From positions 79,220 to 143,219 of the forward strand of contig JABLXL010000002.1 of assembly GCA_013178005.1 (NCBI GenBank): a stretch of DNA of 64,000 nucleotides. The letters are read 5' to 3'. This stretch comes from Actinomycetota bacterium (GTDB lineage Bacteria; Actinomycetota; Geothermincolia; Geothermincolales; RBG-13-55-18). Every line of letters begins with the position of its first letter. Positions within the stretch are counted from its first letter, which is position 1. The notes under the pieces are model-generated. The model did not search any database. It had not been told where the DNA came from and saw only the letters and a program-made list of their open reading frames with translations. The translations under genes and the position numbers were made by a program. Positions 27,123-45,355 of the stretch are shown here, one piece after another.

Positions 27123-27584
27123 ACGTACATGATGGAGGCAGGAGAGCGGGGAGCGCGGGCCGAAAAAGGCATGGCGTGGATGGTGAGGATTCGTCCCGAT
27201 ATGGGCCGGAGATGACGGAAGTCGGCGCCATGGCCATGCATAAGGGCCCGAGGAGGCGAGGCTTTCTCGAGTCCCGACGTCCCGTGCATCCTCGAGGTGA
27301 TGGACGGCATGGTGAACGGGCCCACCACCGAAGACATCTAGGAGGGGTGAGGAGACGGCGCACCGCGCGATGGCGGGCCGGGTCGGCGTGGATTTGCCGT
27401 ACACGGCGTGGGATTGCTGCCGGGCCGCATGCGGGCGGGGACGCTACGACGCACATGCGCCAAGCGATCCGCGAGCGCTGACGCCTTGCCTTGAGACGTA
27501 TGGGCGGGTTGAGATCCTCACGTGACGGTGATTGCCGTGGATGTGTGGGGCTTTCGATCCCTGGATACGGCGAGGTGGATTGAC
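27123..27584. other. Gene-free stretch before the formate dehydrogenase genes
   Basis: About 460 bases between acsE and the NuoE-like gene. Apart from the coding-like remnant at 27212-27341 it is a mixture of GC-rich sequence without ribosome sites. I see no tRNA. A promoter for the formate dehydrogenase operon would be expected here, but no convincing -35/-10 pair was found. Confidence 0.4.
27212..27341 (+). pseudogene. Possible frameshifted coding remnant
   Basis: Two pieces show the GC-rich third-position codon pattern of real genes but lie in different frames. From the ATG at 27212 one frame reads MTEVGAMAMHKGP; after about 27260 another frame reads VPCILEVMDGMVNGP and then TTEDI to a TAG at 27341. 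A single indel between them would restore one short open frame. The product is not recognised. It could equally be a chance pattern in high-GC DNA or a sequencing/assembly indel in a small gene. Confidence 0.25.
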
Positions 27585-28106
27585 ATGAATGAAGAAGCCT
27601 GTCAGTGCAAGCAGAGGTTCGCGGATGTGAACGACCTCGGTCCGCTGGAGGAGATCCTCGAGCGCTACCGTGAAGAGAAAGGGGCACTCATACCCCTGCT
27701 GCAGGACGCCCAGGAGGCTTACGGCTACCTGGACGAGAAGATCATGCGCGCCCTGGCCAGGGGCGCGGGCTACCAGCTCAGCCAGGTCTACGGCGTGGCC
27801 ACCTTCTACACCCAGTTCAGGCTGGAGCCCATCGGAGAGCACCTCATCCGCGTCTGCCACGGCACCGCCTGCCACGTGGCGGGGGCCGAGCTCATCTCCG
27901 AGGAGATCTCCAACCTCCTGGGGATCAAGGACGGGCAGACCACCGAGGACATGAAGTTCACCCTGGAATCGGTGATGTGCGTGGGCGCCTGCTCCCTGTC
28001 TCCCATCATGATCGTGGACGAGGACACCCACGGCAAGCTCAAGCCCGCCAACGTGCGCAAGGTGCTCAAGCGTTACATGGGCGATACCGGGGAGGCGGAA
28101 GAATGA
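27585..28106 (+). CDS. NuoE/HydC-like [2Fe-2S] subunit of formate dehydrogenase
   Basis: 173 residues. Thioredoxin-like 2Fe-2S domain with C91-x4-C96 (CHGTACHVAGA) and C132-x3-C136 (CVGACSLSP), as in NuoE, HydC and HndA. An N-terminal helical part (LEEILERYREEKGALIPLLQ) is typical. It relays electrons to or from the flavin subunit encoded next. ATG at 27585 with GAGGTGG upstream; an upstream GTG at 27522 is possible but precedes non-family sequence. The stop overlaps the next start (ATGA), so the subunits are translationally coupled. Confidence 0.88.
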   Translation: MNEEACQCKQRFADVNDLGPLEEILERYREEKGALIPLLQDAQEAYGYLDEKIMRALARGAGYQLSQVYGVATFYTQFRLEPIGEHLIRVCHGTACHVAGAELISEEISNLLGIKDGQTTEDMKFTLESVMCVGACSLSPIMIVDEDTHGKLKPANVRKVLKRYMGDTGEAEE

Positions 28107-29887
28107 GCGGCAACGGCAAGGCCAAGCTAGTCCTGGGCTACGGCACCTGCGGTATCGCCGCCGGGGCCAACGCGGTGAAGGAGGCCCTGGAGAGCGAGCT
28201 GGCTAGCGGGAAATACCCCGCATTCCTGGACATCGCCGGCTGCATGGGCTTTTGCTTCCGCGAGCCCATCGTCGAGGTCACCACCCCGGACGGGAGGTCG
28301 GTGGTCTACGGAGACCTCACCCCCAAGCGGGTGCCCCAGCTCCTGCAGGCGCTGGCCGCGGGCGAGGTCATCGAGGACTGGGTGGTGAGGCGCTCCGATG
28401 ACCCCGCCGCGGGAGAGGGGGACTTCCTGGCCAACCAGCACCGCATCGTACTGCGCAACTGCGGCAACATCAACCCCGAGAGCATCCAGGAATACATCGG
28501 AGCCGGCGGGTACGAGGCGGCGCGCAAGGCGCTCACCTCCATGACCCCCGAAGAGCTCATCGACGAGGTCTCCAAGTCCGGCATCCGGGGCCGCGGCGGC
28601 GCGGGTTTCCCCACCGGCACCAAGTGGGGCTTCGCGCGCAAGGCGAAGGGCGACCAGAAGTACCTGGTGTGCAACGCCGATGAGGGCGACCCGGGCGCCT
28701 TCATGGACCGCAGCGTGCTTGAGGGCGACCCCCACTCGGTCATCGAGGGCATGATCATCGCCGGCTACGCCATCGGGGCCACCCAGGCATATATATACTG
28801 CCGCGCCGAGTACCCCCTGGCCCTGAAACGGCTGGAAATCGCCATCGCCGCCTGCCACGAGATGGGCTTCCTCGGCAAGGGCATCTTCGGCACCGACTGG
28901 GACTTCGACATCAAGATCAAGAAGGGGGCGGGAGCCTTCGTATGCGGCGAGGAGACGGCGCTCATCGCCTCCATCGAGGGCAAGCGGGGCATGCCGCGCC
29001 CGCGGCCGCCATTCCCCGCCAACGAGGGGCTGTGGGGAAAACCCACCAACATCAACAACGTGGAGACCCTGGCGGCCATCCCCTGGATCATCGCCAACGG
29101 CGGGGATAAGTACGCCTCCATAGGCACGGAGAAGAGCAAGGGGACCAAGGTCTTCTGTCTGGCGGGAAAGATCCGCCGCAGCGGCCTCGCCGAGGTGCCC
29201 ATGGGATATACCCTGCGCCAGGTCATCTTCGACGTCGGCGGGGGGGTGAGAGAGGGCAAGGAGTTCAAGGCGGTGCAGATGGGAGGCCCCTCCGGGGGGT
29301 GCCTGCCCGCCAGCCTCCTGGACACCCTGGTGGATTACGAGGCCATCACCGCCACCGGCGCCATCATGGGCTCCGGGGGCATGATCGTGGCCGACTCCTC
29401 CACCTGCATGGTGGACCTGGCGCGTTACTTCCTCTCCTTCACCCAGGAGGAGAGCTGCGGCAAGTGCGTTCCCTGCCGCATCGGCACCAAGCGCATGCTG
29501 GAGATCCTTGCCCGCATCTGCGAGGGGAAGGGAGAGCCGGAGGATATCGAGAGGCTGGAGACCCTGGCCGGGGACATCAAGGCGGCCAGCCTTTGCGCCC
29601 TGGGGGGGACGGCCCCCAACCCCGTGCTCACCACCCTCAAGTACTTCCGCAACGAGTACGAGGACCACATCCTGCGCGGCAAGTGCACCGCCGGGGTGTG
29701 CCCGGCGCTGATCACCGTGATCATCGACCAGGATACCTGCACCGGCTGCGGGGCATGCGCCAAGGTGTGCCCGGTGGAGGCCATCAGCGGGGAGAAGAAG
29801 CAGCCCCACTCCATCGACGCCGCAAAGTGCATCCGGTGCAAGCTCTGCGTGAGCCGCTGTCCGGAAGAGGCCATCTACACGGAATGA
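28103..29887 (+). CDS. NuoF/HydB-like NAD(P)H-binding flavoprotein subunit
   Basis: 594 residues in four parts: an N-terminal thioredoxin-like Fe-S domain (GTCGIAAGA, then GCMGFC), the NuoF FMN/NADH domain (RGRGGAGFPTGTKWGF and the ADEGDPGAFMDR loop), an SLBB-like part with a 4Fe-4S site (ESCGKCVPCRIGTKRML), and two C-terminal ferredoxin clusters (CTGCGACAKVCP and CIRCKLCVSRCP). This is the HydB/HndC layout found in electron-bifurcating hydrogenases and formate dehydrogenases, so it probably exchanges electrons with NAD(P) and perhaps ferredoxin. ATG overlaps the preceding stop; fdhA starts 10 bases after its own stop. Confidence 0.9.
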   Translation: MSGNGKAKLVLGYGTCGIAAGANAVKEALESELASGKYPAFLDIAGCMGFCFREPIVEVTTPDGRSVVYGDLTPKRVPQLLQALAAGEVIEDWVVRRSDDPAAGEGDFLANQHRIVLRNCGNINPESIQEYIGAGGYEAARKALTSMTPEELIDEVSKSGIRGRGGAGFPTGTKWGFARKAKGDQKYLVCNADEGDPGAFMDRSVLEGDPHSVIEGMIIAGYAIGATQAYIYCRAEYPLALKRLEIAIAACHEMGFLGKGIFGTDWDFDIKIKKGAGAFVCGEETALIASIEGKRGMPRPRPPFPANEGLWGKPTNINNVETLAAIPWIIANGGDKYASIGTEKSKGTKVFCLAGKIRRSGLAEVPMGYTLRQVIFDVGGGVREGKEFKAVQMGGPSGGCLPASLLDTLVDYEAITATGAIMGSGGMIVADSSTCMVDLARYFLSFTQEESCGKCVPCRIGTKRMLEILARICEGKGEPEDIERLETLAGDIKAASLCALGGTAPNPVLTTLKYFRNEYEDHILRGKCTAGVCPALITVIIDQDTCTGCGACAKVCPVEAISGEKKQPHSIDAAKCIRCKLCVSRCPEEAIYTE

Positions 29888-29897
29888 GGAGGTCGGA

Positions 29898-32633
29898 ATG
29901 GAGCAGGTTCGTTTGACCATAGACGGCAAAGAGGTCGTGACCACCTCCGACCGTACCATCCTGGAGGCGGCGAGGGAGGCCGGGGTACGCGTCCCCAGCC
30001 TCTGCTACGAGGAGCGCATGGACCCCTACGGCGCCTGCCGCATCTGCCTGGTGGAGGTGGAGGGCGCGAGGGGGCTGCTTCCGGCCTGTTACACCAAGGT
30101 CACCGACGGCATGGTGGTGCGCACCGCCACCGAGGACCTGGCTCGCATCAGGCGCACCATCCTGGAGCTCATCCTCTCCGACCACCCCAAGGACTGCATG
30201 ACCTGCGAGAGCGCGGGCGACTGCGAGCTGCAGGACCTGGCCTACGAGTACGGGGTGAAGGAAACGTCCTACAAGGGGGAGGAGCACCACTACGAGGTCC
30301 TGGCGGATAACCCCCTCATTGAGCGCGACTACGACAAGTGCATCCTCTGCGGGCGTTGCATCCGCATCTGCCGCGAGGTGCAGGGCGTGGGGGTCTATGA
30401 TTTCGTTAACCGCGGCTTCGAGTCCGTGCCGGGGATACCTTACGGAAAGCCCATGACCGAGTCCCCCTGTGAGTTCTGCGGGCAGTGCGTCTCCACCTGT
30501 CCCACCGGCGCCATTATCTCCATCCCCTCCAAGGGCAAGGGGCGCTCCTGGCAGGTGGAGAAGGTGAGGACCACTTGTCCCTACTGCGGGTGCGGGTGCC
30601 AGCTCGACCTGCACGTGCGCGACGGAGAGATAATCGAGGTCTCCTCGCCGGTGATGGTCGGGCCGGGCGAGGGCAACCTGTGCGTGAAGGGGCGCTACGG
30701 CTACGGTTTCGTGCATCACCCGGACCGCCTCACCCAGCCCCTGGTGAGGAAGGGCGGAAAGGGCGGCGAGCTGGTCCCCGCCACCTGGGAGGAAGCCCTG
30801 GGCGCGGTGGCGGGCCACATCCGCAAGGCCATGGACGAGGGGGGGCCGGATTCGGTGGCCTTCCTGGCCTCGGCGAGGTGCACCAACGAGGAGAACTACC
30901 TCATGCAGAAGCTTGCCCGCGCGGTGGTCGGCACCAACAACGTCGACCACTGCGCGCGTTTATGACACAGCTCCACCGTCGCCGGTCTGGCGACAGCTTT
31001 CGGGAGCGGGGCCATGACCAACTCCATCGACGACCTGGAAAAGGCCGATTGCATCCTGGTCATAGGGTCCAACACCACCGAGGGGCATCCCATCATCGGG
31101 CTGCGCATCAAGCGCGCGGTGATGAAGAACGGCTGCCGGCTCATCGTGGCCGAGCCGCGCCACATCCGCCTCTGCTATTACGCCGGGCAGTGGATACGGC
31201 AGAAACCTGGGACCGACGTCGCCCTGCTCAACGGGATGATGAACGTCATCCTCTCCGAGGGGCTGGCGGACGAGGACTTCATCCGCGAGCGCACCGAGGG
31301 CTTCGAGGAGTTCAGGAAGACGGTGGAGCAGTACCCTCCCGAGAGGGCGGCGGAGATCTGCGGCGTGGAGGCGGAGGAAATCAGGCGCGCCGCCCGCACC
31401 TTCGCCTCCGCGGAGAGCGCGGCCATCGTCTATGCCATGGGCATCACCCAGCACACCACCGGGGTGGACAACGTCCTCAGCCTGGCAAACCTGGCCATGC
31501 TCACCGGCAACCTGGGCAAGGAGGGCGCGGGGGTCAACCCCCTGCGCGGCCAGAACAACGTGCAGGGCGCCTGCGACATGGGCGGGCTTCCCAACGTCTT
31601 CACCGGCTACCAGCCCGTCTCCGACCCCAAGGTGAGGGAGAAGTTCGAGGCGGCGTGGGGGGTGGATTACCTGCCGGGAAATCCCGGCCTGACCCTCACG
31701 GAGATGACGGACGCCGCCCACCGCGGGGACGTCAAGGTCCTCTATATAATGGGCGAGAACCCGGTCATCTCCGACCCCGACATCAGGCATCTCAAGGAAG
31801 CCCTGGAGAGGGTTGAGTTCCTGGTGGTACAGGATATCTTCCTCACCGAGACCGCAGCCTACGCGGACGTGGTGCTGCCCTCGGCTTCCTTCGCGGAGAA
31901 AGAGGGCACCTTCACCAACACCGACCGCCGCGTGCAGAGGGTGCGCAAGGCGGTGGAGCCGCCGGGGGAGGCCAGGGAGGACTCCTGGATCATCGCCCAG
32001 GTGGCGGCGCGGCTGGGCTATGACATGGGTTATATCTCAGCGGAGAAGGTGATGGAGGAGATCGCCTCCCTCACCCCATCCTACGGCGGCATCTCCTACC
32101 AGAGACTGGAAAAGGAGGGCGAGCTGAGGTGGCCCTGCCCGGACGCGGAGCACCCGGGAACGCCCATCCTCCATGTGGGGAAATTTACCAGGGGCAAAGG
32201 CCTTTTCAGCGCGGTGGAATACAAGCCGCCCGCCGAGGAGCCGGATGAGGAGTACCCCTTCATCCTCACCACGGGGAGGCTGCTTGCCCACTACCATACC
32301 GGGAGCATGACCAGGAGGGTGGAGCCCCTCAACGAGCTGGTGCCGCGCAACCGGGTCTGGATCAACCCCGCGGACGCCGAGAGGCTGGGGGTGGCGGACG
32401 GAGACGAGGTGGGCCTGCAGTCGCGGCGCGGCGCCATAAAGCTGGAGGCCAAGGTGACCAGGAAGGTGTCGGAAGGAGTGGTTTTCGTCCCCTTCCACTT
32501 CGGGGAGTCGCCCGCCAACGCCCTTACCAATTCCGCCCTGGACCCGGTGGCCAAGATCCCGGAACTCAAAGTGGCCGCGGTGCGGGTGCTGGCCGGAGAG
32601 GACGCGAAGGGCGTGACCTACGATATGGCATGA
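29898..32633 (+). CDS. fdhA: Selenocysteine-containing formate dehydrogenase alpha subunit (UGA at 30963 read as Sec)
   Basis: 911 residues when the in-frame TGA at 30963-30965 is read as selenocysteine (residue 356). The context [15 protein letters not shown] is the classical FdhA active site, where position U is Sec or Cys. The N-terminal 2Fe-2S domain has C36, C47, C50 and C64; a NuoG-type H-x3-C-x2-C-x5-C site and two 4Fe-4S clusters ([11 protein letters not shown] and [11 protein letters not shown]) follow, then the molybdopterin/tungstopterin domains opening with [10 protein letters not shown]. It reduces CO2 to formate, the first step of the methyl branch. Conceptual translation without recoding would give a false 355-residue protein and a second frame from 31014. 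ATG with GGAGGTCGG upstream. Confidence 0.93.
30963..31007 (+). promoter_or_regulatory. UGA selenocysteine codon with bacterial SECIS hairpin
   Basis: After the TGA (30963-30965), GTCGCC (30978-30983) and GGCGAC (30989-30994) form six perfect pairs around the loop GGTCT, the same apical GGUCU seen in the E. coli fdhF SECIS. An outer stem GCTCC (30970-30974) with GGAGC (31003-31007) extends it. The loop lies about 18 bases after the UGA, inside the range needed for SelB. The organism must encode SelA, SelB, SelC and SelD; none is in this window. Confidence 0.9.
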
Positions 32634-35523: not shown

Positions 35524-35553
35524 TTTACAGCGTTTTCGGGCGTGTGATAAAAT
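35524..35553 (+). promoter_or_regulatory. Promoter of the antiporter operon
   Basis: TTTACA (35524-35529) and an extended -10, TGA followed by TAAAAT (35548-35553), are separated by 18 bases. The predicted start near 35560 gives a leader of about 60 bases before mrpE. Confidence 0.6.
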
Positions 35554-35622: not shown

Positions 35623-36123
35623 TTGACCGGAAGTAGCGACGTTCGCAAGAAGGCCCTTCTTGCCTGCATCCTCTTTGCCTTCTGGGTGATCTTCACCGCC
35701 ACCGTGGCCCTGTACGACCTGGTGCTGGGGGCGATCTGCTCCGCCTTCGTGGCGGCACTCACGGTGGCCCTGCTGGGCCGGGCGCTCGATCCCCGCATAA
35801 CCCCCATGGTGCTGCTGCGCCTGCCGGTGTTCATGGTCCGCCTGGTCTGGGAGATCATCAAGGCCAACTACGACGTGGCCAAGATCATCCTCAATCCCAG
35901 GCTCCCCATCGATCCCAGGATCGTGGAGTACCGCACCTACCTGCCCGACGACCTTCCCCGCACCGTTTTCTCGGACTCCATCACCCTCACCCCGGGAACG
36001 GTGACGGTGGAGCTCGAGGGCGACGTCCTCAACGTGCACTGCCTGTGCCCCTACCACGAGGAGGGGCTGGCGGGACTGGAAAAACTGGTGGCATGGCTGT
36101 TCGGGGTGAAAAGGGATGGATGA
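35623..36123 (+). CDS. mrpE: Na+/H+ antiporter MrpE subunit (MbhA-like)
   Basis: 166 residues. Two or three hydrophobic helices at the N-terminus (residues about 10-60) and the conserved cytoplasmic part with SITLTPGTVTVELEGD and LNVHCLCP, the MrpE/MnhE signature. MrpE is a small structural subunit of the multisubunit cation/proton antiporter. The start is TTG at 35623 with GGGGGATT upstream. It opens a cluster in the order E-F-G-(MbhD-like)-(B)-C-D, identical to the antiporter part of archaeal Mbh hydrogenases. The stop overlaps mrpF by eight bases. Confidence 0.9.
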   Translation: MTGSSDVRKKALLACILFAFWVIFTATVALYDLVLGAICSAFVAALTVALLGRALDPRITPMVLLRLPVFMVRLVWEIIKANYDVAKIILNPRLPIDPRIVEYRTYLPDDLPRTVFSDSITLTPGTVTVELEGDVLNVHCLCPYHEEGLAGLEKLVAWLFGVKRDG

Positions 36124-36388
36124 TTTCCTCACCGTGATCGCGCTCATCGTCAGCCTCAACGCGGTGATCTGCCTCTACCGCGCGGCGGTGGGGCCCACCA
36201 CCCAGGACCGGTTGCTGGGGGTGAACATCGTCGGCACCAAGACCCTTGTGGTGGTGGTGCTCATCACCTTCATCCAGGCGGAGAGCTTCTTCCTAGACGT
36301 GGCCATGGTCTACGCGTTGCTGCTCTTCGTGGTCACCGTGGCCCTCTCCCGGTACCTGGAGGCCGAGGGATGGAAGGAGGCGGGATAG
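36116..36388 (+). CDS. mrpF: Na+/H+ antiporter MrpF subunit
   Basis: 90 residues with three hydrophobic helices. RAAVGPTTQDRLLGVNIVGTKT is the conserved MrpF/MnhF loop, with the family's D-R pair. ATG overlaps the mrpE 3' end. MrpF is a small membrane subunit at the core of the antiporter. Its stop precedes the mrpG ATG by two bases, so the chain is translationally linked. Confidence 0.88.
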   Translation: MDDFLTVIALIVSLNAVICLYRAAVGPTTQDRLLGVNIVGTKTLVVVVLITFIQAESFFLDVAMVYALLLFVVTVALSRYLEAEGWKEAG

Positions 36389-36390
36389 GC

Positions 36391-36720
36391 ATGGCCAAGG
36401 ACATCGTGGCCGGCGTCCTGTGCTGCGTGGGCACCTTCTTCTTCCTCCTTGGGACCACCGGGCTCCTGCGCATGCCGGACATCTTCACCCGCCTGCACCC
36501 CTCCACCAAGTGCGACACCCTGGGGGCGTGTTCCATCATCATCGGGCTCGCGGTTTACAGCGGCTGGTCGTGGGAGATGCCCAAGCTCGTGGTCATCGCC
36601 TGCTTCCTCCTGCTGTCCAGCGCCACCTGCGGGCACGCCATCGGGCGCTCCGCCCTGCGGAGGGACATCGGGTACTGGCGTAGGAAGGGGACGGAGGTGG
36701 AGGATGGGGACGGCGCTTAA
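36391..36720 (+). CDS. mrpG: Na+/H+ antiporter MrpG subunit
   Basis: 109 residues, three hydrophobic helices. LLGTTGLLRMPDIFTRLHP followed by KCDTLGA is the hallmark of MrpG/MnhG. The ATG at 36391 has GGAAGGAGG upstream; an in-frame ATG at 36370 inside mrpF is less likely. The end overlaps the next gene by 17 bases. Confidence 0.88.
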   Translation: MAKDIVAGVLCCVGTFFFLLGTTGLLRMPDIFTRLHPSTKCDTLGACSIIIGLAVYSGWSWEMPKLVVIACFLLLSSATCGHAIGRSALRRDIGYWRRKGTEVEDGDGA

Positions 36721-36958
36721 CCTGGTTTTCATCGCTTTGCTGGTGGCCACGGCCCTCCTCGCCGTCTTCGCCCGCGACCTGCTCGCGGCGGTGATCATAT
36801 TCTCCGTTTACAGCCTGATCATGGCGCTGATGTGGCAACGCCTGCAGGCGCCCGACCTGGCCCTGACCGAGGCGGCGGTGGGGGCGGGGGTGACCACGGT
36901 GCTCTTCGTGGTCACCATCTTCAAGACCCGGCGCAGGGAGGAGGAGGAAAAGGAGTGA
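36704..36958 (+). CDS. MbhD-like / DUF4040 antiporter subunit
   Basis: 84 residues, three hydrophobic stretches, with FSVYSLIMALMWQRLQAPDLALTE and AAVGAGVTT: the DUF4040 fold equivalent to a C-terminal piece of MrpA and to MbhD. The ATG at 36704 overlaps mrpG; the stop overlaps the GTG of the next gene (GTGA). The split of MrpA-C into small proteins is typical of Mbh/Mbx-type operons. The last eight residues are nearly all charged (RRREEEEKE). Confidence 0.82.
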   Translation: MGTALNLVFIALLVATALLAVFARDLLAAVIIFSVYSLIMALMWQRLQAPDLALTEAAVGAGVTTVLFVVTIFKTRRREEEEKE

Positions 36959-37704
36959 AGAACCTCCTGGCGCTGCTCTTCATCATCGCCCTGGCGGCCT
37001 TGCTCCTCTACGTGGCGGCCAACATGCCGCCCATGGGAGACCCCGACAATCCCACCGCCACCCACGTCATCCCCCGCTACCTGGAGGGGGCCGAGAAGGA
37101 AACCCATACCGAAAACGTGATCACCGGCATCATCCTCAATTACCGCGGCTACGACACCATGGGGGAGGTGACGGTGATCTTCAGCGCCCTGGCGGCGGTG
37201 CTGGCGGTGCTGGGAAGGGAGAGGCGCGGTCGCATCCATGCCTACGTGGACCGCTCCACGGTACCCTCCTCGGTCATCGTGCGCACCATGGTGCGTTTCC
37301 TGGTGCCCCTCATCGTTCTCTTCTCCGTCTACACCATCCTGCACGGGGAGATCTCCCCGGGCGGGGGGTTCCAGGGAGGGGCGATCATCGGGGGGAGCAT
37401 GATCGTCTTCACCACCATCTTCGGGCTCTACGAGTCCTCCCGCCGCATCCCCCAGAAGGTCAGGTTTCCCCTGGAGGGGTCGGCGGTGGTCACCTTCTTC
37501 CTGGTGGGCGTGCTGGGCATGGTGGGGGGAGGGAACTTCCTCACCTACGCCTGGCCGAGGGTGGCGGCGGGGTTGCAACCCGCGCTGGTCACCTGGCTCA
37601 CGGTGCTGGTGGAGATAGGGATAGGCCTGGGAGGGGCCATGGTGCTGACCTCCATCCTCTTCTGCATGATCCGTGAGGAGGAAGAGATTGCGGTTGTTGC
37701 ATAA
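36955..37704 (+). CDS. mrpB: Fused MbhE-like and MrpB (MnhB) antiporter subunit
   Basis: 249 residues from the GTG at 36955. The first ~100 residues (one N-terminal helix, THVIPRYLEGAEKETHTENVI then NYRGYDTMGEV) match MbhE, the second C-terminal piece of MrpA, and the rest is the MnhB domain with LHGEISPGGGFQGGAI. In archaeal Mbh these are two proteins, so this looks like a natural fusion; no stop or start with ribosome site separates them. Seven or eight hydrophobic helices in total. It overlaps the mrpC start by 17 bases. Confidence 0.85.
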   Translation: MKNLLALLFIIALAALLLYVAANMPPMGDPDNPTATHVIPRYLEGAEKETHTENVITGIILNYRGYDTMGEVTVIFSALAAVLAVLGRERRGRIHAYVDRSTVPSSVIVRTMVRFLVPLIVLFSVYTILHGEISPGGGFQGGAIIGGSMIVFTTIFGLYESSRRIPQKVRFPLEGSAVVTFFLVGVLGMVGGGNFLTYAWPRVAAGLQPALVTWLTVLVEIGIGLGGAMVLTSILFCMIREEEEIAVVA

Positions 37705-38080
37705 TTACCATTACGCCGCGGCCATGCTGCTCTTCTGCATCGGCCTCTACACGGTCATCGCGCGCCGCAACATCATCAAGAAGCTCATCGGGCTGAACAT
37801 CATGGAGACCTCGGTCTTCTTCTTCTATATCTCCCTGGGTTACCTGGACGGGGGGATAGCTCCCATCAGGACGGGGGGAGCCGACCCGGCGCGCATGGTG
37901 AACCCCATACCCCAGGCGCTCATCCTCACCGGCATCGTGGTGGCGGTCAGCGTGACCGCGCTCGCCCTTTCCCTGGTCATACTGCTCTACCGCCAGTACG
38001 GCACCCTGGACGTGGACCGGCTGTACCGCGACGAGGACGGGGGGACGCACGGAGGTCCTTCCGGGGAGGACGCGCCGTAA
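37688..38080 (+). CDS. mrpC: Na+/H+ antiporter MrpC subunit (NuoK-like)
   Basis: About 130 residues. Three hydrophobic helices with GLYTVIARRNIIKKLIGLNI and VNPIPQALILTGIVV, the MrpC/NuoK signature that carries membrane glutamates or their substitutes in the proton path. The TTG at 37688 lies six bases after GGAGG; a GTG at 37673 and a TTG at 37694 are alternatives. The C-terminal 30 residues are charged and probably cytoplasmic. The stop abuts the next ATG directly. Confidence 0.87.
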   Translation: MRLLHNYHYAAAMLLFCIGLYTVIARRNIIKKLIGLNIMETSVFFFYISLGYLDGGIAPIRTGGADPARMVNPIPQALILTGIVVAVSVTALALSLVILLYRQYGTLDVDRLYRDEDGGTHGGPSGEDAP

Positions 38081-39565
38081 ATGGGTGCCTACCGACACTT
38101 CCCCATACTCATGATCACCGTTCCGCTGGTGTGCGCGGTGCTGCTGCCTTTCCTCGGGTACCTCAGGGAGAGGTGGGTGCCCCGGGCCGCCCTCGTTCCC
38201 CTGTCGGTCTCGACCCTGCTGGGCCTGTTGCTGGTGGGCAAGATACCGGCCCAGGGGTACCTCAGCTACCACCTTGGGGGTTGGGAGCCGCCCTTCGGGA
38301 TCGAGATCCGCGTGGATTACATAGGGCTTTTCCTGCTCCTGGTGGTCTGCGGCATATCCCTGCTGGCCATGGTCTTCTCGCCGCGCTACATCGGCAAGGA
38401 GGTGTCGGGAGGCAGGCTCACCGCCTATTACGTGCTCTTCCTGCTCATGAGCGGGGCCATGCTGGGCTTCGTGGCCACGGGCGACGTCTTCAACCTCTTC
38501 GTGTTCATGGAGATACTGGCCCTCACCTCGTATGCCCTGGTGGCCATCACCGGCAACCGCAACGCGGTGCGCGCCGCCTTCAAGTACCTGCTCATGGGGG
38601 CGCCGTCGTCCATCATGGTGCTGCTGGCGATAGGCCTGCTCTATTCCGCCACCGGCTCCCTGAACATGGCCGACCTGTCGGCGCGCATCGCCGAATCGGG
38701 CTATACCGAGGTGCTGGTGGTGTCATTCATCCTCTTCGTGATCGGCTTCGGGGTGAAGGCCGCCCTCTTTCCCCTTCACATGTGGCTTCCCGACGCCCAT
38801 TCCATAGCTCCCTCGCCCATCAGCGCCATGCTCTCGGGCTTGCTGGTGGAGGTGTCCGCCTTCGCCCTGTTGCGCCTGACCTTCTCCGTCTTCACGGCGG
38901 GCAACGACGCTATCATCGGCGGGACCTCGGAGGCGGTGAGCGTCTTCGCCGCGGCGGCGGTGCTCTACGGCGGCATCATGGCCATCATGCAGAAGGACCT
39001 CAAGGTGATGATCGCCTACTCCACCATCAGCCATATCGGGTACATATTCCTGGGCATCACCTCCTTCACCAAGGAGGGATTGGCAGGCGCCATGTACCAC
39101 ATGCTGGACCACGGCCTGGCCAAGGCCTGCCTCTTCCTCTGCGCGGGGTGCATAATCTACGTGAAGGGCTACAGGAGGATCGAGGACCTGAAGGGCGCCT
39201 GGAGGCAGATGCCCTGGACCTGTTTCGCTTTCTCCGTCGCCGCCATCTCGGTCATCGGCATACCCCCCACGGCGGGTTTCATCAGCAAGTTCTACCTCAT
39301 CTACGGCAATTTCACCGCGGAGCGGTGGCCCTACGCGCTGGTGCTCCTGGTGGGGGCGATCCTGGCGGCGGTCTACTGCCTGCGGGTGATATATTACATG
39401 TTTTTCCAGCCGGATAAGCGAGGCGCATGGGAGGAGGGAGGCGGCGACGCCCCGGCGTCCATGCTCGCGCCGGTGTGCCTTCTCGCCGCGGGCACCCTCT
39501 TTTTCGGCGTCTTCTCGGGACTGATCATAGATTCGTTGCTGAAGGCGGCCGCCTTCCTGCTCTGA
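38081..39565 (+). CDS. mrpD: Antiporter large subunit MrpD (NuoN/M-like), first copy
   Basis: 494 residues, about 14 transmembrane helices. The proton-path residues are visible: Glu in FVFMEILALTSYAL, Lys in GFGVKAALFPLHMWLPDAH, Lys in DLKVMIAYSTISHIGY and the His/Lys of MLDHGLAKACLF. Homologous to MrpD and MbhH. Such subunits couple ion translocation in Complex I-like machines. ATG directly at the mrpC stop. It is the first of three large antiporter-type subunits in a row, each of which keeps the key acidic and basic residues. Confidence 0.9.
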   Translation: MGAYRHFPILMITVPLVCAVLLPFLGYLRERWVPRAALVPLSVSTLLGLLLVGKIPAQGYLSYHLGGWEPPFGIEIRVDYIGLFLLLVVCGISLLAMVFSPRYIGKEVSGGRLTAYYVLFLLMSGAMLGFVATGDVFNLFVFMEILALTSYALVAITGNRNAVRAAFKYLLMGAPSSIMVLLAIGLLYSATGSLNMADLSARIAESGYTEVLVVSFILFVIGFGVKAALFPLHMWLPDAHSIAPSPISAMLSGLLVEVSAFALLRLTFSVFTAGNDAIIGGTSEAVSVFAAAAVLYGGIMAIMQKDLKVMIAYSTISHIGYIFLGITSFTKEGLAGAMYHMLDHGLAKACLFLCAGCIIYVKGYRRIEDLKGAWRQMPWTCFAFSVAAISVIGIPPTAGFISKFYLIYGNFTAERWPYALVLLVGAILAAVYCLRVIYYMFFQPDKRGAWEEGGGDAPASMLAPVCLLAAGTLFFGVFSGLIIDSLLKAAAFLL

Positions 39566-39582
39566 GACAAAGGGGGTAGTCG

Positions 39583-41100
39583 ATGCCGGACAAGAGTGCT
39601 TTCTCGGTGATCCCGCTGGTGGCGGTCCTGCTGCCATGGTTCTCCCTGGTGGTGATCACGGCGAGCCCGAAAAAGGCCCGCGGTCTGCGCCTGTGGCTGT
39701 GCGCCCTGGGGGCCCTGGCCACCTTCGGGGTGGTGTTGTCCCTCCTCCCGGGCATCCTGGACGGGAACACCTACACCATCAAGCTGGCCAGCGTGGTGGA
39801 GGGCCTGGAGATGCGCCTGACCGTGGACACCCTGGGGTACTATTTCTCCCTCATCCTGGCCTTCCTGTGGCTGCTGGCCACCGTCTATTCCATATCCTAC
39901 ATCGACCACAAGGAGAACCGCTTCTTCGTCTTCATGGCCCTGTGCGAGTCCTTCCTCATCGGCTGCGCCTTCTCGGCCAACATGTTCACCTACTTCATCT
40001 TCTACGAGCTCATGACCTTCGGTTCCTACCCCCTGATCATCCACGAGGAGACGGCCATGGCGAGGCGCGCGGGCTACAAGTACCTGGTGTACGCCATCAG
40101 CGCCGGCACGGTGCTCTTCTTCGCCATCGTCGCCCATTACTTCTGGGGCGACGGCCAGCTCGGCTTCGGCTCCTACGGAGTGCTCAGCCTGGAGTTCGCG
40201 GGCCGCGCGGCGCTCATGACCGTTTTCTTCACCTACCTGGCCGGGTTCGGGGTCAAGGCGGCCATCATGCCCCTGCACGGCTGGGTGCCCGACGCCCACC
40301 CCGCGGCGCCCTCACCCGCCAGCGCCCTGCTCTCGGGCGTCATCCTCAAGGCGGGGGCCTTCGGCATCATACGCGTGTGCTTCAACGTCTTCGGGGTGGA
40401 GTTGATGCGGGACCTGAAGGTCCACGTGGTCATGGCGGTGCTCGCCTGCATCACCATCGTGGTGGCTTCCGTCTTCGCCCTGACCCAGGACAACCTCAAG
40501 CGAAGGCTGGCGTATTCGAGCATCGGGCAGGTCTCCTACATAATCCTCGGCCTCTCCATGCTCTCCCACGACGGCGCGCTGGGAGGGGTCATGCACCTGA
40601 CCCACCACGCCCTCATGAAGGGCTGTCTCTTTCTTTGCGCCGGGGTGATCCTGGTGAAGACGGGGAAGAAGAACATAAGCGACATGAAGGGAATAGGGTA
40701 CAAGCTTCCCATCACCATGATCTGCTTCTCGGTATGCGCCCTGGCCATGATGGGCACGCCGCCCTCGGTGGGATTTATTACCAAGTGGCTGCTGGGGAGC
40801 GGGTCCCTGGAGGCGGGGTTGCCGGTGTACGTCATCGTGCTCCTGGTCAGCGCCCTGCTCAACGCGGCCTACTTCCTGCCCATCATCTACACCGCGTTCT
40901 TCCGCTGGGAGGGAGACGAGGCGGAGGAAGGCGAGGAGCATCACCGCCCCAAGCTGGCCTTCGGAAAGGAGGCGGACCACGAGATGGTGGTCCCCATCGT
41001 CATACTGGCGGCGCTGGTGGTCATCGTGGGCATCTGGGTGACGGTGCCCGGTTTCCCTTATTCCTTCGTGAGCAAGGTGGTGGGGATCATCTTCCCCTGA
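39583..41100 (+). CDS. Antiporter large subunit, MrpD/NuoM-like, second copy
   Basis: 505 residues, about 14 helices. It keeps the Glu of YFIFYELMTFGSYPL, the Lys of GFGVKAAIMPLHGWVPDAH, the Lys/Arg of NLKRRLAYSSIGQVSY and HHALMKGCLF. It resembles the antiporter subunits of Mrp-type and energy-converting hydrogenase/oxidoreductase complexes rather than NuoN. A cytoplasmic acidic loop (EGDEAEEGEEHH) lies near the C-terminus. ATG with GGGGGTAG upstream, 17 bases after the first copy. It is not an exact duplicate of the first copy; the family relation is clear but the precise name is not. Confidence 0.85.
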   Translation: MPDKSAFSVIPLVAVLLPWFSLVVITASPKKARGLRLWLCALGALATFGVVLSLLPGILDGNTYTIKLASVVEGLEMRLTVDTLGYYFSLILAFLWLLATVYSISYIDHKENRFFVFMALCESFLIGCAFSANMFTYFIFYELMTFGSYPLIIHEETAMARRAGYKYLVYAISAGTVLFFAIVAHYFWGDGQLGFGSYGVLSLEFAGRAALMTVFFTYLAGFGVKAAIMPLHGWVPDAHPAAPSPASALLSGVILKAGAFGIIRVCFNVFGVELMRDLKVHVVMAVLACITIVVASVFALTQDNLKRRLAYSSIGQVSYIILGLSMLSHDGALGGVMHLTHHALMKGCLFLCAGVILVKTGKKNISDMKGIGYKLPITMICFSVCALAMMGTPPSVGFITKWLLGSGSLEAGLPVYVIVLLVSALLNAAYFLPIIYTAFFRWEGDEAEEGEEHHRPKLAFGKEADHEMVVPIVILAALVVIVGIWVTVPGFPYSFVSKVVGIIFP

Positions 41101-41117
41101 GGCGGTGAGGTACGGGT

Positions 41118-43247
41118 TTGCACGAGGAAAAGGCGGCGATTCTCGCGTTCTCGGCGCTCCCCGCCGTGTCCGTGGCCCTGCCCGTGCTGGGCGCGGCCTG
41201 CGCGGCGGCGGCGGGGGAGGCGCGTTCCCGCCTGCGCAACTGGGCCGCGGTGATTTCGTCGGGCGCCACCCTGGTGGCGGTGGCGGCGTTGCTGGCGCGC
41301 GTCCTTTCGCAGGGACCGGTGTACTTCAACCTTGATATCATGCGCATAGGCGACCGCTTCGTGGGGAACCTGGAGGTGGACGCCATGGGTGCCTTCTTCG
41401 CCTTCTTCGCCTCGCTTCTGTGGTTCGCGGCCTCCATGCATGCCTTCCGTTACATGGACCACGAGCACAAGCGCACCCGTTTCTACCTCTTCATGCTCCT
41501 CACTGAGGCCGCCACCCTGGGCGTTTTCATGGTGCAGGATTTCTTCACCCTCTACCTCTTTTTCGAGGCCATGGGGTTGCTGGCCTACCTGCTGGTCATC
41601 CACTCCGAAACCGAGCGTTCCCGCGCGGCGGCGACCAAGTATATATGCATGACCGTGGTGGGCGGGCTGAGCCTGGTGGGCGGCATCTTCCTCTACCTGG
41701 GTTACGCGGGCACGGTGGCCTTCCGGCCCCTGGCGGAGAGCGCCTGGCTGGCGGGACCCTTCAAGGTCGTCGCCCTGGTGGGCCTGATCGCGGGGTTCGG
41801 GGTGAAGGCGGGCATGGTTCCCCTGCACATCTGGCTTCCCGACGCCCACCCCGCGGCGCCTTCCCCCGCCAGCGCCCTCCTTTCCGGGGTGATGATAAAG
41901 GCCGGCGCCTACGGCATCATCAGGACCTTGCTCTCCTTTTTCCAGCAGCCGGCGGCGCACGCGGGAGAGGCGGCGGAGGCGCACGGGGCGGCGCATGTCG
42001 CGGGCGGCCTCGCCTCCGACGTGCAGGCGTTGGGGATGGTGGTCATCCTCGTGGCCGTGGCCACCATGTTCATCGGCATGCTGCTGGCCCTGGTGCAGAG
42101 CGACATCAAGCGCACCCTGGCCTATTCCAGCGTGAGCCAGATGGGATACATCCTTTTCGGGGCGGGGTGTCTGGCCTACCTGGGCGCGGAAGGGCCCATG
42201 GGCATGGGTGGAAGCCTCTACCACGTGCTCAACCACGCCTTCTTCAAGGGGTGTTTCTTCCTCGCGGCCGGGTCCATCCTCTTCCGCGCCCACGAGCTGG
42301 ACATGTTCAAGCTGGGAGGCCTGTGGCGCCGCATGCCCGTCACCGCCTTCTGCTGGTGCGTCGCGGCCCTGGGCATCATGGGCATCCCGCCCTTCGGCGG
42401 CTTCGTGTCCAAGACCCTCCTGCACCACGCCATCCTTGAATCACACCATCTCGCCGAGGCCGGGCACCTGGGCACGGCCGGCCTGGTCAAGTTCGCGGAG
42501 ATAATGTTCATCATTACCAGCGGGGGCACCATCTGCTACATCACCAAGATGACCTATTACACCTTTTTCCGCCGCCCGCGCGGAGAGCACGCCCACCACG
42601 TGGAGCACGTGCGCGAGGCTCCATCATGGATGCTGGCGGGCACCGCGCTGCTGGCGGCGGGGGTGCTGGTCAACGGCCTCTTCCCCGGCCTGCTCCTGCG
42701 GCGGCTGGTGGGGCCGGTGGTGGGGACGGTCCCCGGCTTCGACGCCCACGTGGCCGCCCACCTCTCCGAGGTGCCGGTATACATATGGGCCAACATCAAG
42801 GAGATCCTGGTCCCCTTGGCCATCGGCCTGGGACTCTTCCTGCTGGGCGCGTGGCCGGACCTGCTGGGGGCGAGGCGGCGCGGGCCGGACCTCTTCCGCT
42901 TTCGCCTCCCCCGCTGGATGGGAGTGGATTACTGGTACGTAAGGGGGGCCAGGGGTTCGCTTGCCCTGCTCTTCACGGGAAAGCGCCTTTACGCTCCCGT
43001 GAAGGAGGGGGTGGTGAGGGAGGCCAGGAAGGGGGCCGCGGGGGTGGTGCGCGCGGTGCGCGACGTTATCTACCCGAGCCTGACCACGAAGCCCATGCAG
43101 TGGGTTAAGGCGCAGTCCTTGAGGTGGTACCGGGAGGCGCGCACCGGGGTCCTGCCGAGGGTGAGGGAATACCAGGGCGACCTGGCGGTGGGGGCGCTGG
43201 TGATCGCGGTCTCCCTGACCCTGTTCCTGATCATGCGGCTGCTCTGA
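41118..43247 (+). CDS. Antiporter large subunit, NuoL/MrpA-like, with C-terminal extension
   Basis: 709 residues from the TTG at 41118. About 14 helices of the NuoL/MrpA core with Glu in LYLFFEAMGLLAYL, Lys in GFGVKAGMVPLHIWLPDAH, Lys in DIKRTLAYSSVSQMGY and the His of VLNHAFFKGCFF. After about residue 560 comes an extra part: a helix, an arginine-rich stretch with a DYWYVRGARG motif, and a final hydrophobic helix (GALVIAVSLTLFLI). The extension is not the MbhD/MbhE segment, which is encoded separately upstream. A small gene downstream encodes a related version of this tail. Confidence 0.85.
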   Translation: MHEEKAAILAFSALPAVSVALPVLGAACAAAAGEARSRLRNWAAVISSGATLVAVAALLARVLSQGPVYFNLDIMRIGDRFVGNLEVDAMGAFFAFFASLLWFAASMHAFRYMDHEHKRTRFYLFMLLTEAATLGVFMVQDFFTLYLFFEAMGLLAYLLVIHSETERSRAAATKYICMTVVGGLSLVGGIFLYLGYAGTVAFRPLAESAWLAGPFKVVALVGLIAGFGVKAGMVPLHIWLPDAHPAAPSPASALLSGVMIKAGAYGIIRTLLSFFQQPAAHAGEAAEAHGAAHVAGGLASDVQALGMVVILVAVATMFIGMLLALVQSDIKRTLAYSSVSQMGYILFGAGCLAYLGAEGPMGMGGSLYHVLNHAFFKGCFFLAAGSILFRAHELDMFKLGGLWRRMPVTAFCWCVAALGIMGIPPFGGFVSKTLLHHAILESHHLAEAGHLGTAGLVKFAEIMFIITSGGTICYITKMTYYTFFRRPRGEHAHHVEHVREAPSWMLAGTALLAAGVLVNGLFPGLLLRRLVGPVVGTVPGFDAHVAAHLSEVPVYIWANIKEILVPLAIGLGLFLLGAWPDLLGARRRGPDLFRFRLPRWMGVDYWYVRGARGSLALLFTGKRLYAPVKEGVVREARKGAAGVVRAVRDVIYPSLTTKPMQWVKAQSLRWYREARTGVLPRVREYQGDLAVGALVIAVSLTLFLIMRLL

Positions 43248-43422: not shown

Positions 43423-43854
43423 ATGGGCGTGGGTATCGGCTTGTGGGCGGTGAGGGCGGCGGAAAACGGCCTGGCCCGGGATTTCTTCGCGGTGCTGGTG
43501 GCTGCCGTGGCCGGGATCGCGGTGATCTTCTACGCCGCGGCCTCGGACCTCTTCGATCTGAAGCTGTTCAAGTTCGACCCTTTCTCCATGAGGGTCCCGA
43601 AGGAAGCGAGGGTGGAGTACTGGTACACGCGGGCGGCGCGCTGGTTCGAGGCCTTCCTGGCGGGAGGGGGTTGGAGGTACGCCAAGGCGAAGAAGCAGGC
43701 CAAGGTGCGCATTAAGGGGGACTGGCGCCGCCTTCGGCGGGAGACCAGGCGCATGCTGCCGGAGGCCGCCAGGCGGTTGAACCGCGACATCGCCCTTGGG
43801 GCCCTGGCCATCGCCGTCGTGCTGGTGGCGCTGCTCATCTTCAGCCTGGTATGA
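43423..43854 (+). CDS. Small membrane protein related to the tail of the NuoL-like subunit
   Basis: 143 residues. A hydrophobic helix at about 20-45, an RVEYWYTRAARW motif, an arginine/lysine-rich helical middle and a last hydrophobic helix (ALGALAIAVVLVALLIF). The YWYxRxAR motif, the basic middle and the LP...R....D.A.GAL.IAV end align with the C-terminal 120 residues of the preceding 709-residue subunit, so this is probably a paralogue of that tail. ATG at 43423 with GAGGTGAG upstream; 175 bases separate it from the antiporter gene. No known family is recognised. It may complete or regulate the antiporter. Confidence 0.7.
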   Translation: MGVGIGLWAVRAAENGLARDFFAVLVAAVAGIAVIFYAAASDLFDLKLFKFDPFSMRVPKEARVEYWYTRAARWFEAFLAGGGWRYAKAKKQAKVRIKGDWRRLRRETRRMLPEAARRLNRDIALGALAIAVVLVALLIFSLV

Positions 43855-43905
43855 GGTCCCGCGCCGGAGGGCGTGGGCGGTAAGAGCCTTATAAGGGGGT
43901 TGCGC

Positions 43906-44145
43906 ATGAGAAAGGGACACGTATCGCTTCTGGTGCTGCTTGCCTGTGTGTTATTGTTGTTGGGAAGCCTTTCTCCCGCCCTGGCGCAGGGGGAGGGCGA
44001 AGCGGATGGCGGGGGAGGCGGCACCGTGCGCCTCATCGTGACCATAGCCGTCATCTGGCTGGCCATTATGGCCGCGGTGATCACGGTGGTCGTGGTCACG
44101 CGCAAGAAGTCCGGGGAAGAGGAAAGGGAAAGCCGCGAGGGTTAG
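43906..44145 (+). CDS. Small exported or membrane protein of unknown function
   Basis: 79 residues. The N-terminus looks like a signal peptide (basic start, LLVLLACVLLLLG core, then SPALAQG as a possible cleavage site), followed by a glycine/glutamate-rich spacer, a second hydrophobic helix (VTIAVIWLAIMAAVITVVVV) and a charged tail. ATG at 43906 with AAGGGGGT upstream. Not recognised. It lies in the same direction as the antiporter genes and next to two other small membrane proteins, suggesting a shared complex or operon. Confidence 0.6.
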   Translation: MRKGHVSLLVLLACVLLLLGSLSPALAQGEGEADGGGGGTVRLIVTIAVIWLAIMAAVITVVVVTRKKSGEEERESREG

Positions 44146-44173
44146 GGGCGCGGAAGATAAGGAGTGGTAAAAC

Positions 44174-44617
44174 ATGGAAGACAGGATAGGCCTCGTGTCG
44201 AGGTGGTTCGTGGCGCTTACGGTCGTTTTCATCCCCCTCTCCATCCTGGTGCTCATCTCCGGTTCATGGGGGGCCAACTTCCTCTCCAGCCAGTGGACGC
44301 GCTACCTGCTTTTCGCTTCCTGGGTCGCGCTCACCGTGTCGCTGGTGGTGGGGGCGGGGAACACCGTGGTCTTCATGGCGGAGGATAAGGAGGAAGATGA
44401 AAAGAGCCCCCGCGTGGTCGCGAGGGGCGAGGACCCGGAGGGGGAGAAGGAAGGCGGGGAGGAAACACCGGCCCCCTCGGCCTCGCGAGGCAAATCCTCC
44501 AATATGAGCTACAACCTGCTCCTGGTGCAGGTGGCCACCTTCCTGGTGGGCGTGGTGCTCTACGTGGCCTTCATATCCTGGATGCTCCTTCCCAAGATCG
44601 TCATGAACGCCTATTGA
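44174..44617 (+). CDS. Three-helix membrane protein of unknown function
   Basis: 147 residues. Helices at about 12-30, 43-68 and 115-140, with a long acidic cytoplasmic loop (residues about 70-105, rich in E, K and P) between the second and third. No known domain recognised. ATG at 44174 preceded by AAGGAG. The neighbouring UPF0280 gene starts six bases after its stop. Confidence 0.6.
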   Translation: MEDRIGLVSRWFVALTVVFIPLSILVLISGSWGANFLSSQWTRYLLFASWVALTVSLVVGAGNTVVFMAEDKEEDEKSPRVVARGEDPEGEKEGGEETPAPSASRGKSSNMSYNLLLVQVATFLVGVVLYVAFISWMLLPKIVMNAY

Positions 44618-44623
44618 TCCTCG

Positions 44624-45355
44624 ATGGGAACGGGAAAATACGCCCATCGCTTCTACCGGGAGAGCATGCACGCGGTGGGCCTGGTCCCCTTCCGCGTGGT
44701 GCTGGCAGAGAGCGACCTCTATATCTTCGCGCGCCGCGACCTCTCGGAGCAGGCGCGCCTCTCTCTTTCCCGGCACCGTTCCGACCTGGAGGGCTTTATC
44801 GCCCGCCAGCCCCTCTTCGCGTCTTCTTTTCGTCCCTACCAGGTGCCCGATGACGCGCCGGCGGTGGTGAGGGCCATGGCGGAGGCGGCGGGTCGCGCCG
44901 GGGTGGGTCCCATGGCCGCGGTGGCGGGCGCGGTGGCGGACATGGTGGGTGGCGACCTGGCGCCGTTGAGCGATGAGATCATCGTGGAGAACGGCGGCGA
45001 CATACACATGCGTTCCGCACGCCCGCGCAGGGTGGGGGTGTTCGCGGGCGACTCCGCCTGGAGCGGCCGGCTGGCGTTGAGGGTCGGTCCCACCCCCCCG
45101 GAGGGGATAGGGATATGCACCTCCTCCGCCACCGTGGGGCCGTCCTACAGCGCGGGGGCGGCGGATTGCGCCCTGGTGGTGGCGGAGAGCGCCGCCCTGG
45201 CCGATGCCGCGGCCAGCGCGCTGGGGAACCGCGCCAAAACCCCGGAGCGCATCGAGGAAGCACTTGATGCGGTTTGCTCCATAGAAGGCGTGACCGGTTG
45301 CCTGTTGATAATGGGCGAACACCTGGGCGTCCGTGGCGCCCTCGAACTCGAGTGA
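44624..45355 (+). CDS. UPF0280 / ApbE-related family protein
   Basis: 243 residues. ENGGDIHMR and a following G-rich strand (GICTSSATVGPSYS) match the UPF0280 family, which is distantly related to ApbE flavin transferases. In the middle, MAAVAGAVADMVG is the family helix. ApbE attaches FMN to Rnf/Nqr-type membrane subunits, but UPF0280 proteins lack proof of that activity, and no FMN acceptor motif protein is adjacent. ATG six bases after the preceding stop. It converges with the nitrilase-family gene. Confidence 0.8.
   Translation: MGTGKYAHRFYRESMHAVGLVPFRVVLAESDLYIFARRDLSEQARLSLSRHRSDLEGFIARQPLFASSFRPYQVPDDAPAVVRAMAEAAGRAGVGPMAAVAGAVADMVGGDLAPLSDEIIVENGGDIHMRSARPRRVGVFAGDSAWSGRLALRVGPTPPEGIGICTSSATVGPSYSAGAADCALVVAESAALADAAASALGNRAKTPERIEEALDAVCSIEGVTGCLLIMGEHLGVRGALELE

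Follow-up and report, generated by a model that had tools for sequence, protein, structure and literature searches.

The 64,000-nt window analysed here (G000:C12:79220-143219) comes from a 3.61 Mb draft genome, in 98 contigs and 97% complete, of an actinobacterium with an acetogen-type (Wood-Ljungdahl) carbon pathway. At 35623-43247 it carries nine plus-strand genes, overlapping or abutting, for the subunits of an Mrp-like membrane module, which corresponds to the membrane half of a respiratory hydrogenase or complex I and lacks an electron-handling part. With a probability of about 0.8, the cluster was judged to encode a multi-subunit cation/proton antiporter that stands alone and belongs to Mrp 'group 3', with MBS-type small subunits and without MrpA. 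It is most likely a Na+/H+ exchanger whose row of three proton-moving subunits is unusually long. The kind is known, and this is a three-unit form of it with a detached brace subunit, part of a series of three to five units. New are the three-, four- and five-unit series, the longer brace in four-unit loci, the detached brace subunit and a set of hybrid complex-I clusters in relatives.

Subunits and conserved residues of the cluster

Pfam assigned the genes, in order, to MrpE, MrpF, MrpG, MbhD, a fused MbhE-MrpB, MrpC and three Proton_antipo_M proteins, here called D1, D2 and D3 (Table 1). Order and coordinates agreed with an earlier note made from the sequence, and no Fe-S or NiFe subunit was found by Pfam within 35623-43247, as that note had also stated. 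The order is not a product of chance, since it is kept in dozens of loci. The note's label, the antiporter half of an archaeal Mbh complex, was close, but the MbhE-MrpB fusion is that of MBS/Mbx (6u8y_E) and not of MBH, and the cluster is nearer to MBS and to the stand-alone group 3 Mrp. The nine genes are real, but four further co-directional genes (43423-45355), which extend the cluster to 45355, had been overlooked.

Group 3 is defined by MrpD-type large subunits, possibly several, and by the lack of an MrpA gene (PMC8415708). D3 carries no MbhD/MbhE domain (no PF13244/PF20501 tail), these being encoded apart, so the cluster has no MrpA and by this definition belongs to group 3. Homologues of MrpB, C, E, F and G were all present, as were the conserved residues of the H+ and Na+ paths, except that the lysine of transmembrane helix (TM) 8 was replaced by glutamate in D1. 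Among the small subunits, the counterparts of MbsB, MbsD, MbsE and MbsG were compared with PDB entries and matched MBS better than MBH or Mrp, and all three large subunits matched MbhH best by sequence. In a tree of 62 proteins, in which some deep forks were weak, D1, D2 and D3 formed three groups, each with actinobacterial and Dehalococcoidia counterparts, and D3 fell outside the MrpA/NuoL/HyfD clade. The nearest named relatives by D3 were Candidatus Solincola species (88% to S. daggyaiensis), which NCBI places in the Actinomycetota, Ca. Geothermincolia. A fold search with the AlphaFold model of D3 (mean pLDDT 66, brace of low confidence) ranked MrpA/NuoL first, probably owing to the brace. 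Assignment of D3 as MrpA or NuoL was rejected on its best match to MbhH, its position in the tree and the missing MbhD/MbhE tail.

Across the 21 loci compared, TM5 Glu, TM7 Lys and TM12 Lys were invariant in D1, D2 and D3, and TM8 Lys was retained in D3 and in D2 of three-unit loci; D2 of the window has all four pump charges. TM8 of D1 carries Glu throughout the Solincola family, and among the additional D2 copies of loci with four or five units, some have Ala or Cys in place of the TM8 Lys. The MrpF-type subunit retains the Asp-Arg of the proposed Na+ path (GPTTQDR), the MbhD subunit has a conserved Glu in APDLALTEAAVGAG, the fused MbhE-MrpB retains the YRGYDTMGEVTV motif (the MbhE motif being given as YRGYDTxGE), and the MrpC-type subunit has a Glu at the MbsG E37 position. 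Earlier work locates the Na+ path and the coupling point in these regions of MrpF, MbhD, MbsG/MrpC and MbhE (PMC7419157, PMC7684303).

Judged from these sequences, the cluster would exchange Na+ (or K+) for H+. MrpE/F/G, MbhD and MbhE-MrpB would let Na+ (or K+) pass the membrane, the coupling point would lie at MrpC/MbhD, and each of D1, D2 and D3 would carry one proton the opposite way. Because TM8 of D1 is a Glu, the three need not pump alike. The lateral helix of D3 would brace the row, and probably so would a separate 143-aa protein. Protons would enter through the D subunits and Na+ would leave through the small-subunit domain (PMC7419157), or the reverse would hold with Na+ as the driving ion, as proposed for Pyrococcus furiosus (PMC8415708). 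We infer the identity of the ion, the direction, the H+/Na+ ratio and the count of one proton per D subunit. The stand-alone Mrp of P. furiosus (mrpEFGBB'CD), which was tested genetically, uses Na+ and affects pH tolerance (PMC8415708). The contig of the window also holds a complete Rnf set, and three more RnfD genes lie elsewhere in the genome. Two V/A-type ATP synthases are encoded, and one c-subunit has a Q...ET pattern, which we take to be typical of Na+ binding. Given these Rnf pumps and ATP synthases in a cell that lacks complex I, the antiporter would exchange Na+ and H+ gradients and buffer the cytoplasmic pH, and it would link the ion circuits of Rnf and the ATP synthases.

Redox genes in the genome and beside the cluster

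The genome was searched for redox subunits with PF00374, PF01058, PF00346 and PF00146. PF00361 scored above its cut-off in D1, D2 and D3 only, genome-wide. PF00146 (NuoH/MbhM) was absent from the whole genome, from 18/18 genomes of the order and from 11 of the 15 further genomes with the large-subunit families. When E. coli Nuo and Hyf redox subunits were used as queries, no Nuo/Hyf connecting module was found beside any of 31 homologous loci; the redox genes there were only formate dehydrogenase/NuoEFG-like (in the order) or Rnf-type (in Dehalococcoidia, L090). Linked MbhJKLMN or MbsJKLMN genes, as in MBH and MBS, occurred neither in the cluster nor beside the homologous loci. Of the NuoB, C/D, H and I that accompany NuoJKLMN in complex I, none lay with the cluster, and nearby were only NuoE/F-like proteins and a NuoG-related molybdenum (Mo) enzyme. 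No hydrogenase-like subunits of the Ehr/group 4 NiFe type adjoined the antiporter genes, the sole candidate being a separate cluster on contig C8. A stand-alone cation/proton antiporter, one of two options raised in the earlier note, is supported by the lack of a NuoH/MbhM homologue in the genome and the order, by the lack of connecting redox genes at the 31 loci and by the tested relative in P. furiosus.

The other option was a membrane part whose redox module lies elsewhere, such as the C8 cluster or a NiFe hydrogenase. The C8 cluster (L014 8296-12219) encodes the sole NuoD-like (49-kDa-like) protein of the genome, a divergent match to PF00346, beside an antiporter-like protein of very divergent sequence and a third, NuoH-like membrane protein, and relatives in family f4 of the class keep a four-gene NuoH/NuoB/antiporter/NuoD-like equivalent (L098 5953-10103) whose NuoB-like member has a CxxC. 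However, the C8 cluster already includes an antiporter-like subunit and in this family lacks an Fe-S subunit, and no NuoB-like subunit was present in the Solincola family copies inspected. The Solincola version looks like a reduced, degenerate one, given that NuoH- and NuoB-like members persist in the f4 equivalent. The hydrogenase on C75 (L016 983-6692) is a NiFe enzyme of the uptake type, exported by twin-arginine translocation, with RnfC and RnfD directly adjoining. C16 (L019 8251-11141) encodes a divergent hydrogenase-like pair, a small and a large subunit, of which the latter matches PF00374 in its first 68 positions only and has an atypical N-terminal Cys motif, RICGGDS. RnfC and RnfD were also found on C33 (L018 1-7066), directly beside a formate-dehydrogenase-like Mo/Fe-S gene set, and a fourth RnfD stands alone on C49. 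The search for hydrogenase, Nuo and Rnf genes that the earlier note had proposed returned the C75, C16 and C8 loci besides the Rnf genes. As a hidden Mbh-type redox module none of these three loci fits, and no candidate emerged that could connect to the antiporter. In family f5 and in several further families, the module occurs without a detectable PF00146. Gene neighbourhood is as far as the support for a distant redox half goes, and we consider it very improbable.

Redox genes also lie 3 kb upstream of the antiporter, inside the window (27522-32633, plus strand). They are subunits of an NAD-type formate dehydrogenase, neither an Mbh/Nuo connecting module nor a part of the antiporter. FdhA is likely a selenoprotein, as its one in-frame TGA is read through as selenocysteine at HCARLUHSS, presumably the usual position of this residue. 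In the order, the module usually comes after nuoE-nuoF-fdhA, an AMP-ligase gene and often DedA, and this order recurs in most loci. In another actinobacterial lineage (f11/f54), a three-D copy lies near MobB, FdhD, MobA, FdhE, NrfD, a 4Fe-4S protein and a molybdopterin enzyme. A functional tie of the three-unit locus to formate is thus possible in two lineages, but a physical electron link is not visible.

One form of such a tie would be a formate-driven pump, in which the upstream NuoE/NuoF/FdhA dock onto the antiporter as their membrane arm and electron transfer drives the ions. The synteny through most of the order and the distinct NrfD-type Mo-enzyme set near three-D loci point this way, and for Saganbacteria and Riflemargulisbacteria the existence of formate dehydrogenase-Ehr complexes that involve fdhA/nuoE/nuoF has been proposed (PMC6349859). 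However, the cluster has no NuoB/NuoI/NuoD/NuoH-type connectors, PF00146 is missing from genome and order alike, class members in f4 and f5 have the module away from nuoE-nuoF-fdhA, and AMP-ligase and DedA genes lie between the two sets. A formate-driven pump is therefore unlikely. Several points nevertheless weigh against a stand-alone antiporter. The linkage to nuoE/nuoF/fdhA in the order, and to the FdhD/FdhE/NrfD/Mo-enzyme set in the other lineage, hints at a tie to formate metabolism, for which a housekeeping antiporter would have no need; D1 has the TM8 Glu; and the genome is a 97%-complete draft in 98 contigs.

A series of three to five proton units and its brace

The set, without an adjoining Mbh/Nuo connecting core, was found across Ca. 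Geothermincolia, in other actinobacterial classes and in one Dehalococcoidia genome. The E-F-G-MbhD-EB-C-D1-D2-D3 set was present in families f1, f2, f4 and f5; the simple open reading frame picker misses some small genes of the loci. At the f3 locus (G144, L056 8299-10956) no E, F or G was recognisable; proteins of 80 and 237 aa occupy the MbhD and MbhE-MrpB places, followed by C and D1-D3, and the module adjoins AMP-ligase and formate dehydrogenase genes. On the Dehalococcoidia contig (L090 669-15415), the three-D module is preceded by the gene for an ApbE-domain protein and followed by convergent genes for RnfD, RnfC and an Fe-S protein, a layout that suggests an Rnf-antiporter link.

Four large subunits were found in actinobacterial loci of f47, f11 and f54, and five in f36. 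In D3, the lateral helix lies in the stretch that separates the final two TM helices. This spacer measured 101-139 residues in three-unit loci and 247-499 residues in eight four-unit loci. Where both forms occur in one genome, the three-/four-unit spacers were 135/359 (G105), 139/318 (G126), 134/318 (G148), 134/247 (G191) and 134/359 (G312), these five genomes being mutually related and so counting as few independent events. L145 showed three large subunits and a 373-residue spacer, but its contig ends inside the cluster; the two D2 copies of the G005 four-unit locus look identical and may reflect recent duplication or assembly; and the five-unit D3 tails were masked or incomplete. In MBH, MBS and complex I, the length of the lateral helix depends on how many antiporter subunits there are (PMC7684303). 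Growth by about 26 aa per extra unit, as expected from PMC9040806, did not hold: the four-unit loci gain 100-390 aa, which a simple matching of lengths does not fully explain.

The 143-aa protein directly downstream of D3 is a paralogue of the D3 TM15-lateral helix-TM16 tail (29% over 147 columns by BLAST). Its hidden Markov model (HMM) matched D3 tails with E down to 2e-17 and the window D3 with E 7e-12, whereas no shuffled control scored better than 0.17. It was found in the Solincola family only, had no Pfam or NCBIfam family and gave a helical model (pLDDT 65); 11-12 close sequences were available for it and for D3. The protein probably braces the complex; the brace geometry modelled in either protein is of low confidence (pLDDT 65-66) and is not established.

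A geared series is conceivable, though less likely than not: the same Na+ module would work with one proton unit (P. furiosus Mrp), two (classical Mrp), three (the window), four or five in a row, the H+/Na+ ratio would rise with the units, and the brace would be adjusted to the row. Alternatively, the cluster might be a plain Mrp for pH and Na+ homeostasis that uses one or two large subunits, the others being redundant, since the P. furiosus Mrp works with one D (PMC8415708) and TM8 Lys is lost in some D copies. This is very unlikely, because the three subunits, their order and the TM5/TM7/TM12 charges are kept across the Actinomycetota, the three-unit set recurs in the Dehalococcoidia genome, and four-unit loci have the longer brace, which fits a single row that includes every unit.

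How many protons each NuoL/M/N-type subunit moves is a central question for complex I, and for Mrp, MBH and MBS measured values of the H+ and Na+ stoichiometry were still lacking according to PMC7684303. A natural series that differs only in subunit number, without redox chemistry, offers a clean system for this question, and relatives with three, four or five proton-moving subunits could show what each contributes. As this cluster illustrates, a membrane arm can exceed the two units of Mrp and still have no redox partner, and anaerobic-type actinobacteria with a Wood-Ljungdahl pathway and no complex I keep such a long arm.

In the remainder of the tail (Table 1), the 79-aa protein had no family match and the 147-aa protein no NCBIfam family. 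The PRK04334-family gene, whose product is presumably related to ApbE, is the next gene in those loci of the order that reach that far.

Table 1. Genes of the antiporter cluster and its surroundings, in window coordinates
Feature	Position	Strand	Basis
NuoE-like	27522-28106	+	
NuoF-like	28100-29887	+	
FdhA, NuoG-like N-terminus	29898-32633	+	
Promoter-like match upstream of MrpE	35524..35553	+	1 found vs 1.6 expected; number no better than chance
MrpE/MbhA-type subunit, 166 aa, TTG start as called	35623..36123	+	PF01899 E 6e-33
MrpF/MbsB-type subunit	36116..36388	+	PF04066 E 1.6e-15; PDB best MbsB 6u8y_B, then MrpF, MbhB
MrpG/MbhC-type subunit	36370..36720	+	PF03334 E 5e-26
MbhD (DUF4040) subunit	36704..36958	+	PF13244 E 4e-24; PDB matches MbsD, MbhD
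Fused MbhE-MrpB, 249 aa, fusion as in MbsE	36955..37704	+	PF20501 + PF04039; 6u8y_E E 7e-27, residues 2-201
MrpC/NuoK-type subunit	37673..38080	+	PF00420 (Oxidored_q2); MbsG 106 bits > MbhG 80 > MrpC 44
D1, MrpD/MbhH-type antiporter subunit, 494 aa	38081..39565	+	PF00361 E 3e-66; MbhH E 2e-72
D2, second antiporter subunit, 505 aa	39583..41100	+	PF00361 E 1e-55; MbhH E 2e-54
D3, third antiporter subunit, 709 aa, TM15-lateral helix-TM16 brace	41118..43247	+	PF00361 E 1e-63; MbhH E 1e-57
Detached brace subunit (probable), 143 aa	43423..43854	+	HMM match to D3 tails
79-aa protein, predicted signal peptide/TM plus TM	43906..44145	+	hydropathy, conservation in Solincola family
147-aa protein, three predicted TM helices	44174..44617	+	hydropathy, conservation in Solincola family
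PRK04334-family protein, 'hypothetical' in NCBIfam	44624..45355	+	NF003323 E 3.5e-78; synteny

Comparison with known antiporters and complex I

The group 3 Mrp of P. furiosus (PF1147-53, mrpEFGBB'CD; Haja & Adams 2021, PMC8415708) shares with the window the gene order, the MbhD/E/F-type domains and the lack of MrpA and of a redox module, and it is Na+-coupled. In contrast, it has one large subunit where the window has three, its B-type fusion joins MbhD and E rather than MbhE and F, and it has no lateral-helix subunit, whereas the window has a detached brace protein. MBS (Mbx; PDB 6u8y, PMC7684303) has the closest small subunits and the same MbhE-MrpB fusion (MbsE, 235 aa), and its second large subunit, MbsH', also has a TM15-lateral helix-TM16 arrangement; however, it has two large subunits and the redox/membrane anchor MbsJKLMN, which is absent from the window. 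MBH of P. furiosus (PDB 6cfw) shares the order A-B-C-D-E-F-G-H, and D1-D3 match its MbhH best, but it has one large subunit, separate MbhE and MbhF and a NiFe module. The group 1/2 Mrp complexes of Bacillus, Anoxybacillus and Dietzia have the same ion-exchange machinery and key charges, but two large subunits and an MrpA that includes the MbhD/E parts in a single protein, and the window D3 lies outside the MrpA clade.

Five clusters of the complex-I type were observed in related actinobacteria (L147 1658-16127 on G304:C41, L111 on G276:C46, L146, L148 and L149). They combine NuoM and NuoN with two D2-family subunits and a D3-like subunit that replaces NuoL; in L147 and L111, whose contigs are sufficiently complete, the pumping subunits number five. 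The protein in the NuoI position is 660-673 aa long, and the L147 copy has flavin/NAD and 4Fe-4S domains. Ca. Manganitrophaceae had been described as the only group whose complex I has five pumps (PMC9040806), and these hybrid clusters look like a second such lineage. The rhizobial green complex I and the Complex_I_3 of Manganitrophaceae (PMC9040806) have, as here, added antiporter subunits and a lengthened lateral helix; they are redox complexes and the module of the window is not, whereas the hybrid five-unit clusters of its relatives resemble Complex_I_3.

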